Virus record (IMG/VR): IMGVR_UViG_3300003690_000045
Coordinates: 1 to 28,947 of that record
Source of the DNA: a virus
DNA length: 28,947 nt
Direction: 5' to 3' (one strand)
In this document: in pieces, positions 3,699-28,947 of the stretch
Layout of the letters: each line of letters starts with the position of its first letter
Position numbering within the stretch: position 1 is the stretch's first letter
Notes under the pieces: model-generated
Seen by the model: only the letters and a program-made list of their open reading frames with translations
Told to the model about the DNA's origin: nothing
Databases searched by the model: none
Position numbers and translations under genes: made by a program

Positions 3699-4037
3699 TT
3701 ACCAGTCCCATCCTGTGTGCGGAGCTGTTTTTTGATTATTTGAGATTAATTTGATCTCATTCTCACCCAACCATTCATTAAACGCTCTTTGTGTTTGATT
3801 AACATCGGAGTAGAGTTCCTTGAACTCTGACCATTTATTACGAGCTTTTTGCACTCCGTAGTAATAATCACCACTACCCAGTTTGCAACGTGTAATTATT
3901 TGCCACATACGTTGCTTGGTAACATCGTATTCTTTTCCGAGTTGTTCCAGTGTGGTGTTTGAATCACTCCATTGACTATACATGGCTCTATATCTAATGG
4001 AGTTTTCTTTTGCTTTTTGTTGAGAAATTCCTTTCAT
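3699..4037 (-). CDS. HTH protein resembling sigma region 4
   Basis: A 112-aa protein with a clear helix-turn-helix at about residues 28-52 (TTLEQLGKEYDVTKQRMWQI), close to the pattern of sigma-70 region 4 and related HTHs ('tLeelG..ygvsr.Rv.QI'). Flanks are basic and the C-terminus is Trp-rich (GWDW). It probably binds DNA as a small regulator; a sigma-like role is possible but there is no region 2 here. Its ATG overlaps the DNA polymerase stop in ATGA (4034-4037), so it is made together with polymerase, and it is the last gene of that operon. Confidence 0.7.
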   Translation of the reverse strand: MKGISQQKAKENSIRYRAMYSQWSDSNTTLEQLGKEYDVTKQRMWQIITRCKLGSGDYYYGVQKARNKWSEFKELYSDVNQTQRAFNEWLGENEIKLISNNQKTAPHTGWDW

Positions 4038-5902
4038 GTCTTTACTTCCTTTATTTCACCCCAAGACGCTCCTAGTTCTTGATCCACCAATAGAGGGATA
4101 GCAAGTTTGACACAATTCTCCATTATTCTTTTTACTGTGTTAGCTTGTTCTGTACTTTCTATTGAAATATCAACTTCATCATGAACCTGTAAATGAGGGA
4201 CTATTCCCTCCTTCCACAAATCTATCATCGCTATCTTGGTCATATCAGCAGCTGACCCTTGTATCAGACGATTGAGTGCTTTATATGTGTATGACCTTTT
4301 CAGACCATTTCCATATTTTTCTTTCGCCTCTTTTAATGGTAAAGGGGGAGACCTTTCGTATCTACTCTCCCATAGATTAAAACGACACCGTCTACCCGCA
4401 AATGTTTTAATGTAGCCACGCTCCATAGCTACTCGTGCACACTGATCTTGTAGAGCTCGAATAAAGGGAACTTTAGCGTGGTATTGTTCAAATAGTTCTT
4501 CTGCTTCATTATCCTTTAGCCCTAATTCTTTAATCAGTTTTTCCTTGCCCATTCCATAGCTTAATCCTAAGTTAATCGTTTTAGCTTGTTTGCGTGGGAT
4601 ATTTGCCATATCTGCAACAATTTGATGAAAGTCAGCTGCGTCCTCAGTGTAGAGAGCTACGGCTTCTTTTGCTCCGGTAAGGTTCATTTGATGAGCGTAA
4701 TGAACTATGAGTCTGGGTTCTTGTTGAGAGTAATCGAATACTCCCCATTGGCAACCTTCCTCTGGAATAAATAAGGATCGAATTAGATTACCTATTTCTG
4801 GGTCACGTGCAGGAACTTGTTGTAGATTAGGGTTGCTATAACTAAACCGACCACTAACTGTTCCCCCACGATCATTACGCATGGGGTGAGCTTCAGCGTG
4901 AATTCTACCATTAAAAGTATGGTTCATTATCATTTTATCAATGAACGTAGTTCTAGCCTTATTAAGTTTTCTTGCTCGTACAATCAACTGAGGAAGCTCA
5001 TGTTCCTGTTTCTCTAGCCAATCCCTTTGAAAACTAGCCATACCTTTCTCGGTCCTTGGGAACCATAGATTATTCTTCTCAAAAATCTTTTGTAGAGAAG
5101 CGTTAGCCCATAGATTCACATCATTGCCATACTTACGCTTTATCTCCACCTGTATTTTTTGTTCTTCCGTAGATAATTGTTTACTAACCACCTCTGCTTT
5201 TTCTTCATCTACTCTAACCCCTCTCCATCGCATCTCTAATAGGAGAGGTATTAACTCAGATTCCATTTCAAGTATTTTTTCTAGACCCTGTTCCGCTATT
5301 TCTAGCTTCAACTTATTCCATAGCTTTAACGTTAATGCTGCATCTTGCTCACCATAAGGTCCAACATATTTGGCGTGGAGCTTATACATTTCAGACTTCG
5401 GATTGATACCAAAAGCCAAAGCTGCATCTTGTAATAAAGATTCATCCTTCTTTTCATCACAATAAACAAGCCCTAAATTATCAAGTGAATAAGAGAACCT
5501 ATTTTCATTGATTAAAGGAGCAGCAATGATGGTATCGAGTATTTTGCCCTTGACAGTGATCCCTTCTCTCCGCAACCATCCTACGTCATAGAGTGCGTTA
5601 TGGAATATAACGTCTCGTTTTGTAGAGCTAAGTAGATTAGTTAGCCAACGTAAAACCATGCCTTCATCTAAGTTACCTCCCCCTTCATGACGAATAGGAA
5701 AATAACCAGTCCAGTCTTTTGTTGCTACTCCTACGCCAACCACATGACCACGACTTGTAGCCCATCCTGGACCACAAGTCGTGAGATAAGGGTCATAAGT
5801 TTCCAAGTCTATAGCTATAGTTTCTGTCTCAGAAAACTGAGGAAAAACGTCAGGTACCGACCAAGAACTTTTGGGAGCAAACAAGGTGTTTTGTAGGCTC
5901 AT
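4034..5902 (-). CDS. Family A DNA polymerase with 3'-5' exonuclease domain
   Basis: Phage replicative DNA polymerase, 622 aa, lacking the 5'-3' exonuclease of bacterial Pol I. Exonuclease domain: Exo I DLE (Asp32, Glu34), Exo II HNALYD (Asp106), Exo III YGEQD (Tyr183, Asp187). Polymerase domain: TVSGRFSYSNPNLQQVP near 348-364, motif A DYSQQE (Asp390, Glu395), motif B RKQAKTINLGLSYG (437-450), motif C VHDEV (His574-Glu576). The motif B residue equivalent to E. coli Phe762 is Leu445. The ATG has no Shine-Dalgarno of its own; the nearest AGAAAGGAG serves a 10-codon leader (5899-5931) whose stop overlaps the polymerase ATG. The stop overlaps the next gene (ATGA). Confidence 0.97.
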   Translation of the reverse strand: MSLQNTLFAPKSSWSVPDVFPQFSETETIAIDLETYDPYLTTCGPGWATSRGHVVGVGVATKDWTGYFPIRHEGGGNLDEGMVLRWLTNLLSSTKRDVIFHNALYDVGWLRREGITVKGKILDTIIAAPLINENRFSYSLDNLGLVYCDEKKDESLLQDAALAFGINPKSEMYKLHAKYVGPYGEQDAALTLKLWNKLKLEIAEQGLEKILEMESELIPLLLEMRWRGVRVDEEKAEVVSKQLSTEEQKIQVEIKRKYGNDVNLWANASLQKIFEKNNLWFPRTEKGMASFQRDWLEKQEHELPQLIVRARKLNKARTTFIDKMIMNHTFNGRIHAEAHPMRNDRGGTVSGRFSYSNPNLQQVPARDPEIGNLIRSLFIPEEGCQWGVFDYSQQEPRLIVHYAHQMNLTGAKEAVALYTEDAADFHQIVADMANIPRKQAKTINLGLSYGMGKEKLIKELGLKDNEAEELFEQYHAKVPFIRALQDQCARVAMERGYIKTFAGRRCRFNLWESRYERSPPLPLKEAKEKYGNGLKRSYTYKALNRLIQGSAADMTKIAMIDLWKEGIVPHLQVHDEVDISIESTEQANTVKRIMENCVKLAIPLLVDQELGASWGEIKEVKT

Positions 5903-15112: not shown

Positions 15113-16555
15113 ATGAAACACAAATTTAAGACAAAGCCATACAAGCATCAGCTCTTGGCATTATCTAAATCATGGAATAAACGTGAGTATGCTTATTTCA
15201 TGGAAATGGGGACTGGTAAGTCAAAAGTCCTTATAGATAATATAGCCCTCCTATATGATCGAGGAGGGATTAATGCTGCAATAATCATTGCTCCCAAAGG
15301 GGTATACCGAAACTGGTCTGAGAAAGAAATACCAATTCACATGCCGGATCATGTGGAAAAGCGAATTGTGGTGTGGAATCCAGCACCTAATAAGAAACAA
15401 AAGAAAGCATTACTTGATTTATTTGAAGTAGGGGCTGATTTAAAAATATTGGTTATTAACGTTGATGCATTTAGCACGAAGAAAGGAGTAAATTTTGTAG
15501 AAAAATTTATTAGGTGCAATGATGTGTTAATGGCGGTTGATGAATCCACCACTATTAAAAACCCCAAAGCCCAACGCACCAAGAATTTGTTAAAGCTTGG
15601 CGTTAATGCCAAGTATCGTAGAATCTTGACAGGATGCCCTATTGCTCAGTCTCCTTTAGATTTATATAGTCAAAGTGCCTTTCTATCTAAGGAATTACTT
15701 GGTTACGATTCTTTTTATTCCTTTCAAAATCGTTACGCGAAACTATTTAATAGAAAGATAGGACAACGAACCTTTAGGCAAGTAACAGGGTATCAGAACC
15801 TTGAAGAACTAACCACTCGTCTTAGTGATTTTTCTTACAGGATTTTGAAAAAAGAATGCTTAGACCTACCTGATAAGGTTTATCAAAAAAGAGAAGTTAT
15901 CCTGACTCCTGAGCAAAAGAGGATTTACAAGGAATTAAAAGACTATGCAATAGCTGAACTAGAGTCTCACGAAACGGTGAGTGTTTCTTCTATACTCACA
16001 CAGATTTTAAGATTACATCAGGTGGTTTGTGGGTTTGTAAAGCATGATAATAATGAAGAAGTGGAGATTAAAAACAATCGGCTAGATGCTTTACTGGATG
16101 TTTTGGCAGAAACACAAGGCAAAACAATTATTTGGGCGAACTATCGTTACGACATTAAACGCATATTAAAGACTCTACAAAACACAGTAGGGGCGGATAG
16201 TGTTGCCACTTATTATGGTGATACGCCTGATGATGAAAGGCAAAAGGTAATCACTAGGTTTCAAGACCCGGACTCACCTTTACAATACTTAGTTAGTAAC
16301 GTGCAAACCGGTGGGTACGGTATCACGTTAACGCAAGCCAGTAATGTTATTTATTATTCTAACAACTATGACCTAGAGAAACGATTACAGTCCGAGGATC
16401 GTGCTCATCGAATAGGGCAAACCAATAAAGTCACCTACATAGACCTTGTTTCTAAGGGCACAGTCGATGAAAAGATTGTAAAAGCCTTGCGCAATAAATT
16501 AAATTTAGCCCAAGAAGTCTTAGGTGATGAAAAATGGAAAGACTGGATAGGCTAA
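15113..16555 (+). CDS. SNF2-like superfamily 2 helicase/translocase
   Basis: A 480-aa ATP-driven DNA translocase, the only plus-strand gene. Motif I is MGTGKS (32-37), motif Ia region IIIAPKGVYRNW, motif II AVDESTTIKNP (Asp143, Glu144), motif III ILTGCPIAQSPLDLY. The second RecA domain has TIIWANYR, the long GGYGITLTQASNVIYYSNNY, and motif VI QSEDRAHRIGQ, the SNF2 signature. Length matches compact phage SNF2 proteins with no extra domains. Role: replication-fork or recombination remodelling. It has a GAAAGGG ribosome-binding site. Its stop overlaps the stop of the convergent virion gene at 16552-16555, with no terminator between. Confidence 0.94.
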   Translation: MKHKFKTKPYKHQLLALSKSWNKREYAYFMEMGTGKSKVLIDNIALLYDRGGINAAIIIAPKGVYRNWSEKEIPIHMPDHVEKRIVVWNPAPNKKQKKALLDLFEVGADLKILVINVDAFSTKKGVNFVEKFIRCNDVLMAVDESTTIKNPKAQRTKNLLKLGVNAKYRRILTGCPIAQSPLDLYSQSAFLSKELLGYDSFYSFQNRYAKLFNRKIGQRTFRQVTGYQNLEELTTRLSDFSYRILKKECLDLPDKVYQKREVILTPEQKRIYKELKDYAIAELESHETVSVSSILTQILRLHQVVCGFVKHDNNEEVEIKNNRLDALLDVLAETQGKTIIWANYRYDIKRILKTLQNTVGADSVATYYGDTPDDERQKVITRFQDPDSPLQYLVSNVQTGGYGITLTQASNVIYYSNNYDLEKRLQSEDRAHRIGQTNKVTYIDLVSKGTVDEKIVKALRNKLNLAQEVLGDEKWKDWIG

Positions 16556-17352
16556 GAGCTTCTATACTTCATTAAACGTTTTAACGCTCTATCCTTATCA
16601 GAAGGCGCTCTACCTGTTTGACCCGTATCCCTATCAGAAGGCGCTCTACCTGTTTGACCTTGACCTATCATATCTAAGAGAGAAGCTAAGTCTTTATCAG
16701 ATAAGGTTCTACCTGTTTGACCTTGACCTAGCGCCTTCCTTAGCATTTCTGAATGAAAAGCTACACCCCTATCAGAAGGCGCTCTACCTTCTTGTAAGTT
16801 GCCCATAACCATCTGTCTTAGTATATCGGATTCAGACATCCCACCGCCGTGTTCACGATACAGTGGCCCACCGCCCCTCCTCATGAGAGGTCTACCATAG
16901 GCTGCTTGCATAGGCGGACCCCCCATTCCACCTGGAGGTGGACCACCCATAGGCGGACCACCCATTCCATTCATTGGTGGTTGCTCAGCACTAGCAACTA
17001 GCATAGCTTTAGCGGTATCCAAAACAGCAATAGCTTGGCCTATATCTCCTTGTGCTCTCTCAACCACAGCTTCCGCTAACATGGCAGAGTCTTGTTCTAT
17101 ATCTGCGGGAGGCCCCCCCATCGGAGATCCCCCTGCCACTGCCATCTCACCTATTCCAGGGCCCATCGGAGGTCCCCCCATTCCACCTGGCGGAGGTCCA
17201 CCCATTCCAGGGTCCATCGGAGGTCCCCCCATACCACCTGGCGGAGGTCCACCCACTCCACCTGGAGGAGGACCACCCATTCCACCTGGCGGAGGCACAT
17301 CACCTCTCCCACCTGCCATCATTATATTTGTTAAATCCTCTATACCTGCCAT
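16552..17352 (-). CDS. Gly/Pro-rich repeat virion protein
   Basis: A 266-aa low-complexity protein, last of the virion operon. Residues about 15-70 and 130-150 are built of GGPPPGGMGGPP-type repeats; between them is a helix (DIEQDSAMLAEAVVERAQGD). The C-terminal third has four copies of a short module (Q)TGR(A/T)(P/L)SD(K/R)D, two of them followed by 'LDMIG'-like helices. The same module occurs once in the 561-aa protein at 21878-23563. A virion or assembly role follows from its place in the operon and shared modules; the activity is unknown. The ATG overlaps the upstream stop (TAATG), with AGGAG six bases before. In-frame repeat changes could alter its length easily. Confidence 0.7.
   Translation of the reverse strand: MAGIEDLTNIMMAGGRGDVPPPGGMGGPPPGGVGGPPPGGMGGPPMDPGMGGPPPGGMGGPPMGPGIGEMAVAGGSPMGGPPADIEQDSAMLAEAVVERAQGDIGQAIAVLDTAKAMLVASAEQPPMNGMGGPPMGGPPPGGMGGPPMQAAYGRPLMRRGGGPLYREHGGGMSESDILRQMVMGNLQEGRAPSDRGVAFHSEMLRKALGQGQTGRTLSDKDLASLLDMIGQGQTGRAPSDRDTGQTGRAPSDKDRALKRLMKYRSS
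16596..16659 (-). repeat. Two exact 28-bp direct repeats (36-bp period)
   Basis: The 28 bases at 16596-16623 recur exactly at 16632-16659. They encode GQTGRAPSD-type modules near the C-terminus of the Gly/Pro-rich protein. More divergent copies are at about 16696-16723 and 16771-16796. Confidence 0.85.
16685..16713 (-). repeat. 29-bp repeat shared with 22326-22354
   Basis: An exact 29-base match to 22326-22354, encoding TGRTLSDKDLA-type sequence in both genes and in the same reading frame. This links the 266-aa and 561-aa virion proteins. Confidence 0.85.
16905..17312 (-). repeat. Gly-Pro-Met coding repeat tracts
   Basis: Tandem, imperfect copies of a 12-30 base unit coding for GGPPPGGMGGPP and relatives, in two blocks (about 16905-16970 and 17155-17312) around a non-repetitive helix. 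A 24-base piece (17169-17192) recurs exactly at 23652-23675 in another gene and another frame. Confidence 0.8.
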
Positions 17353-25045: not shown

Positions 25046-26126
25046 ATCTCATATTCCCCATTTTATTAAAAGTGTCTAGTCGTGCTATCCCTTGTGCATG
25101 ACTTCCGTCGCCTGCTGCATCAACCGCTGCTTTAGAAAGCATATACTCGCCGTTACTCGCCATAACAGGTATTAGATCATCTTTTGAACTTCCTGGACCG
25201 TACATAGCGCCTCCAGAGGGCATGAACATTGGTCTTTTTAAGACTGAACCTCCGTCAGCAAAAGAAACGGAAGAACCAACAATTGGTTTATAAGCTGCCC
25301 TTCTTCTATTTGAGTTTCCAGCAGGAAGTGTTTGGGTTTTAACCCTGCTGCCTTTAGGTTCTTCATCGTCACCGAATAATCTATTAAAGATGGCGGTACC
25401 TACGCTACCTAAACCCTTATAAATTGCATCAGAAACCATAGGGTCTTGACTATCTACCCAAGCCTGCGTTTTTTCGAGCATATTAGGTTCGGGGGCTTCG
25501 AATGTCCCTGGGGGATGAACCGTAGGCGTTACATTGTAGTCACGAAACTGTAGTTGACTTGTCAGAGGCCCTAGTTCAGGAGCTTCAGGAGGAGCTCCTT
25601 GAAAATCAGCGAACATTGATTTTTCAAATAAATCTTCAGGCTTAGGTTGTTCTATTTCCGAAAAATCTACTTCAAGAATATCTGAGGTTATTTCAGGTTT
25701 ATCTCCAGCAATAATCCCATGCTTTCTTAGAAAGTCAAGAAGGTCTTCATCCGCACCTTTTTCACTTAGTAAGGATAAAAGCCCTCCACCATTAGCCCTG
25801 CTTAAATAACCCCCCAAATGCATCCCTGCTATTCCATACTCACTTAAAATATTTGGATCTATTCCTGCTTCAGCTAAAACTTGTAAAATATACTCTGCTT
25901 CTGCTGAAGACTCAGGCTCACTCATATTGTCCAGTGTAAAGTCCCCAAACTCTTGGACTTGACTCCCCTCAACAGGAGCTATTTCCATAATTGGTCCAGG
26001 ACTTATAGAAGGAGAAGTACCCGCAGGAATCGCTCGTTTTTGTTCTTTTGCCGGTGAGATCTTGCTGCTTATAGCACCACTTGCTACATTAATAGCTACG
26101 GCTGTTGCTATTGACGCCATAGTCAT
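25038..26126 (-). CDS. Virion protein with C-terminal phage 'GPGSSKDDLIPVMASNGEYM' domain
   Basis: A 362-aa protein. The N-terminus is weakly hydrophobic (ASIATAVAINVASGAIS), followed by EIAPVEGSQVQEF (48-60), shared with the 352-aa protein. The centre is acidic and Pro-rich. The C-terminal 80 residues contain GPGSSKDDLIPVMASNGEYMLSKAAVDA, a module I know from many phage tail and injection-related proteins ('GPGt.tsD.ipa.lS.GEfV..a.av'). The ATG overlaps the upstream stop as ATGA; an in-frame ATG two codons later is an alternative. Likely part of the tail or internal virion complex. Confidence 0.68.
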   Translation of the reverse strand: MTMASIATAVAINVASGAISSKISPAKEQKRAIPAGTSPSISPGPIMEIAPVEGSQVQEFGDFTLDNMSEPESSAEAEYILQVLAEAGIDPNILSEYGIAGMHLGGYLSRANGGGLLSLLSEKGADEDLLDFLRKHGIIAGDKPEITSDILEVDFSEIEQPKPEDLFEKSMFADFQGAPPEAPELGPLTSQLQFRDYNVTPTVHPPGTFEAPEPNMLEKTQAWVDSQDPMVSDAIYKGLGSVGTAIFNRLFGDDEEPKGSRVKTQTLPAGNSNRRRAAYKPIVGSSVSFADGGSVLKRPMFMPSGGAMYGPGSSKDDLIPVMASNGEYMLSKAAVDAAGDGSHAQGIARLDTFNKMGNMRYG

Positions 26127-26674
26127 GTTATTTGTTCCATAATGTCGTCTATTTGTTTTGTATCTATTCCTGTTAGTTTTAACTCACAAAAATCGTCTAC
26201 AGTAACTTCATTAAGAACGTCTTCCACTGTTAAACAGTCTGTTCTGTGTACTGTTATAAAAGTACATTCTTCATGTATATATAATACTCTTTTTGTCCCT
26301 GCTTCTGTTATTCCATGAAAAGGTGCTTTTATACGTTCTACACCGTTAGCACTATAAATAGACGCCTCACCTTTCATAATAAAAAAAGGATGATTCTTAG
26401 TGTGAATTTTAGTTGAGACTACTAAATCTTTAGGCATAACTATTTGTCTTATGTACTGTCCGTCTGCAAAGTTATGCGTAACAGCGCCTTCAGTCTGGCC
26501 TGTCATTTGGCTGTTTAATTCTTGGTGATTGTTTTCTTCACAGTATTTAGTAATCGCTGCTTCAAACTGTTGAATTTTGTTTTGGAATTTTATTTTGTGT
26601 TCTTTATAATCAAAAAATTCGCAAGCTTCCTGATACGATAGTGCAGGATTTTTAACTAATGAAACGCTCACCAT
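26123..26674 (-). CDS. Cupin-like phage protein
   Basis: A 183-aa protein whose residues about 68-145 look like a single cupin (double-stranded beta-helix): VTHNFADGQYIRQIVMPKD, then IHTKNHPFFIMKGEASIYS, then APFHGITEAGTKRVLYIHEE and TFITVHRTD. The His/Gly pattern of cupin boxes is partly there (H.KNHP..I.KG), so metal binding is possible but not certain. The C-terminal 35 residues are acidic. Similar small cupin proteins occur near structural genes in phages. It is the first gene of the virion operon; the ATG has GGAG five bases upstream. Role unknown, perhaps a capsid decoration or assembly factor. Confidence 0.6.
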   Translation of the reverse strand: MVSVSLVKNPALSYQEACEFFDYKEHKIKFQNKIQQFEAAITKYCEENNHQELNSQMTGQTEGAVTHNFADGQYIRQIVMPKDLVVSTKIHTKNHPFFIMKGEASIYSANGVERIKAPFHGITEAGTKRVLYIHEECTFITVHRTDCLTVEDVLNEVTVDDFCELKLTGIDTKQIDDIMEQIT

Positions 26675-26759: not shown

Positions 26760-28547
26760 TCAAAAAGTAAATATTTTTAAGGGTTTTTGCTTACCTTTCA
26801 CGTATATCGGCTCTAGTTCCCTTAATCGGTATCCGCACAAGCTTTTAGTACTTTCTCCAATTAGTATATCGGCTCCTGCTTCTTTAGTTGCTGACTCCAA
26901 CCTAGCCGCTGTGTTAACTGCATCCCCGATGGCCGTATAGTCAAATCTTGTGTCACTTCCCATATTACCAATCACAGCTTCTCCCGTATTAATACCAATA
27001 CCTATAGCTATGGGAGGCAACCCTTTAGCTTGTAGTTCTGTATTTAAATCCGACATGTTCTGCTGAATATCCTTAGCACAATCCACTGCTATATTAGGAT
27101 GATTTACTAGGTCTAGTGGTGCATTAAAAATGGCCATCATGGCATCGCCGATGTATTTGTCCACCATCCCGCCATGTTTCTGCACCGCTGCTTGTTGTGC
27201 AGTAAGAACTCTATTCATTATATAGGTCACTTGCTCAGGCGGTAAGCTCTCTGACATAGAAGTAAATCCTCTAACGTCAGTGAATAAGAAAGTGGCTGTT
27301 TTCTTTTCTCCCCCTAATTTTAATAAATCAGGACTATCTTGCAAACGCTTTACCTGTCTGGGGTCTAGGTAATGTTCAAACTGTTTCTTTATCTGTTGAC
27401 GCAGAAGATATTGCTCTCGGAAGTTAAACCAGAATTGTTCTCCAGATAACAATAGTAAACAAATAGCAGGCCAAGTAACATCAACTAATTGATTTTGTTC
27501 AATAAAATAAGTACCCGTACCATAAAGCCCAAGTAACATACCGCCTACAGTTACAGCTGACCATGTTACATTACACTTCTGCAGAGATGCTATAGTAATT
27601 GTACAGACTAATAAGAGAAGCCCAAGCTCATATAACAAACGATTGCCTGGAATGCTTGGACTATCTGCAATTAAAAGACTTTCAGCCAAGGCTGCCTGAA
27701 TGTAATGTGGATTTAGTAGCCCTACAGGAGTGGCTAATTGAGGCATTACACCTGCAGCACTTGTTCCTACAAAAACAAACTTATCCTCTACCTGGGGATC
27801 TTGGTATGACGTAGTAGGGGTATCTACCCAAGAGATCCACTTCCGTCCAAACCTATCTGTAGGGATTACTCCTAGAGCTGGAATTCTAATACTTTCGATC
27901 CCGTCTTCATTTGTACGAATTTGATAACTTCCTTCTCCACCGCTAATTGTAACTGTAAGGGCCTTTAATACTTGAGTGGCAAACGAAGCGATCCAACCAT
28001 CAGGAACCCTAGAAATAAGAGGTATTTGCCGTATAAGATTGTCTACATCCGTAGGCGCTGAGACCGCGCCTTGTAAAGCATATTCAGTAAGTTGCTCTAC
28101 ATTTACAAGGAAGCCGGGAGCGGAAGTGTAATATAAAGGATCTTCTCCAAGAATCACGGTTCTATCCACTTCTGGATATTGACCATTAGAATACTCAGAT
28201 ATTGCTAATACATTTATGCCCTGGCTAAGACTTGTAGCAAAAGCTTCATCCCCACCAAAGCGATCAGGCTGAGGAAACAATATTACCCATCCAACTCCCA
28301 GGGCCCCCTGTCCTATAAGTTTGTCTTGAAGAGAAGCCAACGTGTGCCTGGGAAAAGGCCAACCTCCTTCACGAGCTATGTCTTCCTCAGTAATATCAAG
28401 TATTACAAAGTGCCCTGAAGGGGTAGGTTGTGTAATAAAAGCATCAAAAGTTTTGAGACGAAGAATTTCTAACGCCGACCAATTTAATAGAAGAGGGAAG
28501 GTAAAAAGGACCGTGGTAACAAGACCTATTTTTGTACCAATTTTCAT
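26760..28547 (-). CDS. CHASE2-domain class III adenylate cyclase (membrane)
   Basis: A complete 595-aa sensor cyclase. Residues about 8-24 form an N-terminal membrane anchor. Residues about 28-300 are a periplasmic CHASE2-type sensor (FDAF, ILDITEEDIAREGGWPFPR, ILFPQPDRFGGDEAFA, FVFVGTSA). Then come three membrane spans (about 303-320, 330-348, 355-372), a linker helix, and a class III catalytic domain from about 415. Metal-binding Asp424 and Asp468, adenine-selecting Lys464 and Asp542, and Asn545/Arg549 are all present, so it should make cAMP from ATP as a homodimer. The usual Asp in the CHASE2 'fDvLF' strand is Val (GWVILF). It is coupled by TAATG to the curlin-like gene. Unusual beside phage genes. 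Confidence 0.93.
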   Translation of the reverse strand: MKIGTKIGLVTTVLFTFPLLLNWSALEILRLKTFDAFITQPTPSGHFVILDITEEDIAREGGWPFPRHTLASLQDKLIGQGALGVGWVILFPQPDRFGGDEAFATSLSQGINVLAISEYSNGQYPEVDRTVILGEDPLYYTSAPGFLVNVEQLTEYALQGAVSAPTDVDNLIRQIPLISRVPDGWIASFATQVLKALTVTISGGEGSYQIRTNEDGIESIRIPALGVIPTDRFGRKWISWVDTPTTSYQDPQVEDKFVFVGTSAAGVMPQLATPVGLLNPHYIQAALAESLLIADSPSIPGNRLLYELGLLLLVCTITIASLQKCNVTWSAVTVGGMLLGLYGTGTYFIEQNQLVDVTWPAICLLLLSGEQFWFNFREQYLLRQQIKKQFEHYLDPRQVKRLQDSPDLLKLGGEKKTATFLFTDVRGFTSMSESLPPEQVTYIMNRVLTAQQAAVQKHGGMVDKYIGDAMMAIFNAPLDLVNHPNIAVDCAKDIQQNMSDLNTELQAKGLPPIAIGIGINTGEAVIGNMGSDTRFDYTAIGDAVNTAARLESATKEAGADILIGESTKSLCGYRLRELEPIYVKGKQKPLKIFTF

Positions 28548-28947
28548 TAATCAAATTGATTTACTGTAACGGTTTTATTACAACTCGACGTACAATCTAA
28601 TATGACTGTGTAATTCTTCACGCTGGTTCCTGTCTGAGTTGCATTGACTGTGTAATCTCCTTGCTCCACTCGTATATTCCCAACGTGTGCGCCGTTACCT
28701 GATTGTGTCAGGTTGACCGTTGAGTTATCAGAGGGATTGTTCCTGAATTCAATATCCCCGTCTTTGTTCCCTGAACCACTCTGCGTGATGGTTGCATCGT
28801 TATTGTTACAGTTGCCACACGACTTTATATAGGCGTTGTGATTACCGCTGCCACTTTGCGTAGCCGTCCATGTGCTGTCATCACCAAAAGCATAAAATTT
28901 CGCGTAGTGGTTGCCCGTTCCTGACTGGCTAATTGTGTAGACGTTAT
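28547..28947 (-). CDS. Curlin-repeat (amyloid-type) protein, C-terminal part, runs off window
   Basis: The 3' part of a gene (132 codons, no start in the window) ending at TAA 28547-28549. The translation shows five repeats of about 21-27 residues with the curlin signature Q-x-G-x-(G)-N: TISQSGTGNHYAKF, TATQSGSGNHNAYI, TITQSGSGNKDGDI, NLTQSGNGAHVGNI, NATQTGTSVKNYTV, then VTVNQFD at the end. Two Cys pairs (CGNC; CTSSC) are unusual for curlins. Known curlin proteins are exported and form cross-beta amyloid fibres or beta-solenoids on cell surfaces; an alternative here is a beta-solenoid phage fibre. A signal peptide cannot be seen because the N-terminus is missing. The stop shares one base with the cyclase ATG (TAATG). 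Confidence 0.82.
   Translation of the reverse strand, partial: NVYTISQSGTGNHYAKFYAFGDDSTWTATQSGSGNHNAYIKSCGNCNNNDATITQSGSGNKDGDIEFRNNPSDNSTVNLTQSGNGAHVGNIRVEQGDYTVNATQTGTSVKNYTVILDCTSSCNKTVTVNQFD

Follow-up and report, generated by a model that had tools for sequence, protein, structure and literature searches.

A marine phage contig that ends inside a curli-type gene, probably within a curli cassette of which it holds the 3' part

Why does a viral contig end in a protein built of curlin-type repeats, and is this protein made for the surface of the infected cell or for the virion? The window, the whole stretch of 28,947 nucleotides that was analysed (IMG/VR virus record IMGVR_UViG_3300003690_000045), stops within an open frame for which a preliminary description, made from the letters alone, had claimed at least five consecutive QSGxGN-like repeats next to phage virion genes. 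The features that bear on the question are the following.

28547..28945, minus strand: curlin2, the C-terminal 132 aa of a curlin-repeat protein (Pfam Curlin_rpt, five Q[ST]G cores, 92% identity to the C-terminus of the full-length 260-aa protein of the relative L003)
26760..28547, minus strand: CHASE2 plus class III adenylate cyclase, 595 aa, the final gene of the cassette described below (CHASE2, E 7e-31; Guanylate_cyc, E 7e-20)
26123..26674, minus strand: short-tail-fibre or tail-fibre-adhesin-like protein, outside the cassette (phrog_12032, E 8.5e-23; phrog_24280, E 5.8e-22)
4034..5902, minus strand: DNA polymerase A, used for placement of the phage (53% identity to that of 023Pt_psg01, MW574966)

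The repeats are real. The curlin2 frame has five Q[ST]G cores, at residues 7, 30, 55, 81 and 104 (spacing 23, 25, 26 and 23 aa), a count that none of 100,000 residue shuffles equalled; the best shuffle reached four cores, once. A profile search, as the preliminary description had advised, placed the ORF in Pfam PF07012 (Curlin_rpt) with E 1.1e-6 over three stretches (28.9 bits against a cut-off of 20.7), and the same profile matched 33 of 33 relatives of the protein. A scan with the 132-aa query found relatives encoded on 77 viral contigs, mostly at 77-95% identity. The frame runs off the window edge, leaving the N-terminal half and the signal peptide past the contig end; full-length relatives are about 260 aa long and begin with a stretch like MRFIFISLLSLPVFA-ADN, which on hydropathy resembles a signal peptide. 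No PHROG phage structural family matched the ORF up to E 0.1. Judged by its sequence, the window ends within a genuine curlin-repeat gene of a marine phage, putatively for a curli-type amyloid fibre.

Structure prediction agreed with this assignment. AlphaFold2 gave the curlin2 of L003 a confident all-beta repeat fold (pLDDT 86, pTM 0.86), a predicted beta-solenoid, and gave an all-beta repeat fold also to the csgA/B-like protein found upstream in relatives (pLDDT 84, pTM 0.80). The curlin2 profile matches the solved curlins 8c50 (4e-18) and 8enq (5e-5); that of the csgA/B-like protein matches solved curlins only marginally, and 18 of its 39 members match Curlin_rpt at E<=0.01. A Foldseek search of the curlin2 model against the PDB returned no match at E<=0.001, and a second comparison returned generic beta-helices only, with no curlins among the structures listed, which is not evidence against a curlin. 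Since only such generic matches were obtained, fold comparison does not separate a curlin from other beta-helices.

The proposed proximity to virion genes stood in part. The immediate neighbour is the adenylate cyclase, whose ATG overlaps the curlin2 stop codon (TAATG); only then follow the short-tail-fibre-like gene and, beyond it, long proteins whose virion role is unclear. The cyclase, which could be aligned with the solved cyclases 6fht, 2w01 and 3r5g, has the motifs FTDVRGFT, DKYIGDAMM and AIGDAVNTAARLES at 422, 463 and 539, and with them what we take to be the metal-binding Asp pair and the Lys/Asp/Asn/Arg residues. Its domains are those of a CHASE2 class III adenylate cyclase, and its catalytic residues look intact.

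The polymerase A of the window is also 50% identical to that of HTVC023P and 49% to that of HTVC027P, and is adjoined by a thymidylate synthase and a phrog_2396 protein; therefore, we regard the phage as a distant relative of the HTVC023P-type marine podophages (GC 41% in the window vs 36.5% in 023Pt_psg01). Its nearest long relative is the sister phage G031/L081 (polymerase 84%, equally placed tail-fibre-like gene 74%, cyclase 61% identical). The record is probably a fragment. Rfam and tRNA scans of the whole window found nothing. Positions 16552-17352 encode a protein very rich in GGPPPGGMGGPP repeats, near a long 1154-aa protein, and a similar one is present in G031.

The window holds only the last two genes of a cassette; csgF and csgG would lie, with the curlin N-terminus, beyond the contig end. 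In relatives the order is one or two small membrane proteins, csgF, csgG, a csgA/B-like gene, fecR, curlin2 and the CHASE2-adenylate cyclase. The complete cassette of L003 gave Pfam matches to CsgF (3e-14), CsgG (2e-44), FecR (2e-11), Curlin_rpt (5e-13) and CHASE2 (2e-37). FecR lies directly upstream of the curlin in 39 of 40 curlin-baited relatives with room for it, and contigs that reach further carry csgF, csgG and the csgA/B-like gene upstream on the same strand. Using csgG as a second bait, so that loci were not picked by presence of a curlin, we found, where there was room, csgF in 73 of 73 loci (beside csgG, the pair that marks type VIII secretion when in one locus), the csgA/B-like gene in 66/67, fecR in 60/60, a second curlin in 43/48 and the cyclase in 37/37. 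Among the curlin-baited loci (L002-L078) with room, the cyclase follows the curlin in 27 of 27 at a GC of at least 0.40 vs 8 of 24 below 0.40, a split that may reflect lineage rather than function. Most long viral contigs that were read have one or two single-TM proteins of 80-98 aa directly before csgF (L309:2454-2995, L310:15411-15934 and equivalents in G011, G025 and G031); one such small protein is of 116 aa. No Pfam kinase domain was found in the four of these proteins tested, and they may be the 'histidine kinase' that PMC9599517 lists with the phage curli module.

Export genes, which the preliminary description had proposed to look for, are thus present in relatives as csgF and csgG, but not as csgE: none of 19 viral records matched PF10627, the E. 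coli control being positive. The CsgE gate is present in E. coli and is not universal. From this null result the pore gate is either missing or different in the phages. Viral CsgG aligns with E. coli CsgG structures at 4e-38; opposite what we take, by number and role, to be Tyr51, Asn55 and Phe56 of the E. coli protein, the first two residues are changed and the Phe is kept. In a tree, the viral CsgG sequences group in a single clade (SH-aLRT 99) that excludes nearly all those from cells.

Among close relatives, purifying selection falls most strongly on the C-terminus of curlin2. In the curlin-baited set its pN/pS is 0.15, compared to 0.31 for the N-terminal part of curlin and 0.28-0.32 for other genes; in a small csgG-baited close group (35 pairs) it is 0.13 vs 0.21-0.29. 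These are Nei-Gojobori proportions with pS saturated near 0.8, so that absolute values are rough and serve for gene-to-gene comparison only, and each set is biased towards its bait, curlin or CsgG respectively. In both sets curlin2 (0.13-0.15) lies below CsgG (0.21-0.32) at similar, saturated pS, which suggests that the fibre subunit, and not the pore alone, is being kept. By this measure curlin2 is the most constrained cassette protein among close relatives only. As the slowest gene everywhere it had to be rejected, because the order is reversed across all csgG-baited loci (median identity 52% for CsgG, 35% for curlin2).

The cassette occupies different sites in phages of 35-54% GC. It adjoins spanin-like and holin-like genes in G002, G012, G003 and G016, is flanked by portal-like and capsid-module genes in G015, and both in the window and in G031 precedes the tail-fibre-like gene (small proteins at cassette edges are labelled by their size, their order and the presence of a signal or membrane segment). 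Phage backbones with curlins 86-92% identical to that of the window have almost no other proteins in common with it: G012 shares at most one non-cassette protein, and G002, whose cyclase is just 39% identical, shares one, although sharing is underestimated since the window is a fragment. In G031, FecR and the cyclase overlap with no curlin between them, which suggests that gain or loss affects curlin2 alone.

Cassettes of this type also appear in bacterial assemblies. Hyphomonas sp. TMED17 (L237:8393-14416, NHBW01000006.1) encodes a phage-type series of csgF, csgG, a 504-aa curlin-like protein, FecR and CHASE2 cyclase on a contig of 705 kb, from a marine chromosome, where the genes around it are ordinary bacterial ones. 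Its CsgG nests inside the viral clade, on a long branch in a quick tree, and either a phage-to-bacterium transfer or a lineage near the donor could explain the locus. Phage-type FecR was found in 1 of 105 genomes searched of the Hyphomonas family; among 385 Alphaproteobacteria genomes only the Hyphomonas source was close, the others being 25-32% matches, mostly in much larger frames. L235, L236, L238 and L239 (Sphingobacteriales, Synechococcus and Saprospirales MAG bins) carry the phage curli cassette too and, as their CsgG groups with that of phages, are probably misbinned phage contigs.

We propose, with a probability of roughly 0.6, that the 3' part of a phage curli (type VIII secretion) cassette lies in the window and that the products of this cassette build a fibre on the surface of infected cells. 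From it the phage would produce an outer-membrane pore of CsgG lipoprotein and CsgF, perhaps late in infection, as the position of the cassette among late genes hints; the pore would export two beta-solenoid curlins, the csgA/B-like protein and curlin2, to assemble into a fibre on the cell surface, with the FecR-domain protein and the CHASE2 cyclase acting as sensors of the periplasmic or envelope state that adjust cAMP. The likely gain is that infected cells and their neighbours adhere or aggregate, or that a surface coat keeps rival phages out. Secretion, fibre formation, timing, signalling and benefit are here inferred from the identity and order of the genes, their signal-like N-termini, the predicted folds and the purifying selection. 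If the proposal holds, planktonic bacteria without curli of their own would gain a surface amyloid during infection, which in the ocean would have consequences for aggregation, superinfection and recombination. A further version, which we hold as no better than tentative, makes curlin2 an exchangeable subunit common to different ocean phages, near-fixed while pore and cyclase diverge, with its export sensed by the FecR-CHASE2 cyclase and fibre assembly thereby coupled to cAMP. The lack of csgF, csgG and a curlin N-terminus in the window itself, the missing CsgE match, the changes at the Tyr51 and Asn55 positions of CsgG and the lack of clumping in cultures of the Methylophilales phage Melnitz (PMC9004378) count against a curli fibre.

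Published accounts are divided between a phage system that makes fibres and an orphan pore. As proposed for Melnitz, CsgG and CsgF could be a gated pore or pinholin that times lysis, with accessory or vestigial curlins; the absence of clumping, the genes for spanin-like and holin-like lipoproteins or small membrane proteins beside four of the cassettes and the single-TM proteins before csgF fit such a role. However, among close relatives purifying selection acts more strongly on the curlin2 C-terminus than on CsgG, the csgA/B-like protein is almost always kept and the cassette of G015 lies away from lysis genes. Because the curlin is constrained and the second curlin-like protein nearly constant, we favour fibres and consider a lysis pore rather unlikely. 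The pore might instead take up large nutrients or siderophores, with FecR and the cyclase regulating host metabolism and fibres secondary (PMC9599517). The invariable FecR and cyclase of csgG-baited loci and the intact-looking cyclase residues speak for uptake, but 16 of 24 low-GC loci have no cyclase near the curlin, so that the cyclase is not essential to the module, and the FecR family of the cassette is not known to bind iron citrate; we judge this explanation improbable.

The preliminary description had left a choice between a host-made surface amyloid and a tail fibre. The predicted beta-solenoid does resemble tailspikes, among many other beta-helices, and the second gene downstream of the curlin is short-tail-fibre-like; yet the ORF matches no PHROG, csgF and csgG are linked to it across different phage types, T4-like included, full-length relatives start with signal-peptide-like N-termini, and G031 lacks such a curlin although it shares the tail-fibre-like gene. 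A virion part, very improbable in our estimate, was rejected on the PHROG result and the csg linkage across backbones; secreted curli are favoured over it because of the cassette linkage, the signal-peptide-like starts and the confident beta-solenoid. That the contig ends inside the curlin gene could also point to a bacterial chromosome beyond a phage end, which the preliminary description had named as the other threat to its proposal, or to an assembly artefact. We give this next to no weight: relatives are on 77 viral contigs, several of them long with phage genes on both sides, and these, together with the isolates HTVC008M and Melnitz, which have the same gene order, refute a chromosomal origin.

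The fibre-making cassette that we favour has known counterparts, so the earlier statement that no role had been described for a phage curlin does not stand: modules are published, with aggregation and a block of superinfection among the proposals (PMC7029224, PMC9004378, PMC9599517). In these open-literature papers we found no mention of the constraint on curlin2 or its gain and loss as a single gene, nor of the variation of cassette sites across phages of 35-54% GC or the Hyphomonas FecR-cyclase version. The genes csgF and csgG were reported in pelagimyophages, with capture of siblings as the proposed role (PMC7029224, 2020), and in Melnitz, said to lack csgA/csgB, with a role in lysis timing proposed and a complete fibre pathway doubted by the authors (PMC9004378, 2022). 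E. coli csgBAC/csgDEFG and alphaproteobacterial curli loci have CsgG, CsgF and curlin repeats in common with the phage cassette, which in contrast has no CsgE match and includes FecR and the CHASE2 cyclase in its operon; PMC9599517 likewise noted that CsgE is missing from phage modules, drawing a comparison with alphaproteobacterial ones, and that genes of the FecR-cyclase type are not within bacterial T8SS operons. The HTVC023P-type podophage module of that paper matches the cassette in content and order (csgF, csgG, csgA/B and FecR, frequently with a second curlin and an adenylate cyclase), although the window belongs to a more distant lineage of 41% GC and 023Pt_psg01 itself has no match to its curlin. 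The Pelagibacter phage HTVC008M (NC_020484; PMC7029224) has the order csgF-csgG-curlin-(FecR-like hypothetical)-curlin-cyclase, but is a T4-like phage of 147 kb whose curlin is 29% and cyclase 33% identical to those of the window. Melnitz (MZ577097; PMC9004378) has the same order too, its record annotating two curlin-associated repeat proteins, and both its curlin and its cyclase are 33% identical to those of the window. Since phage curli modules are published and the HTVC008M and Melnitz records share the gene order, the window is a fresh example of a described system rather than a new kind.
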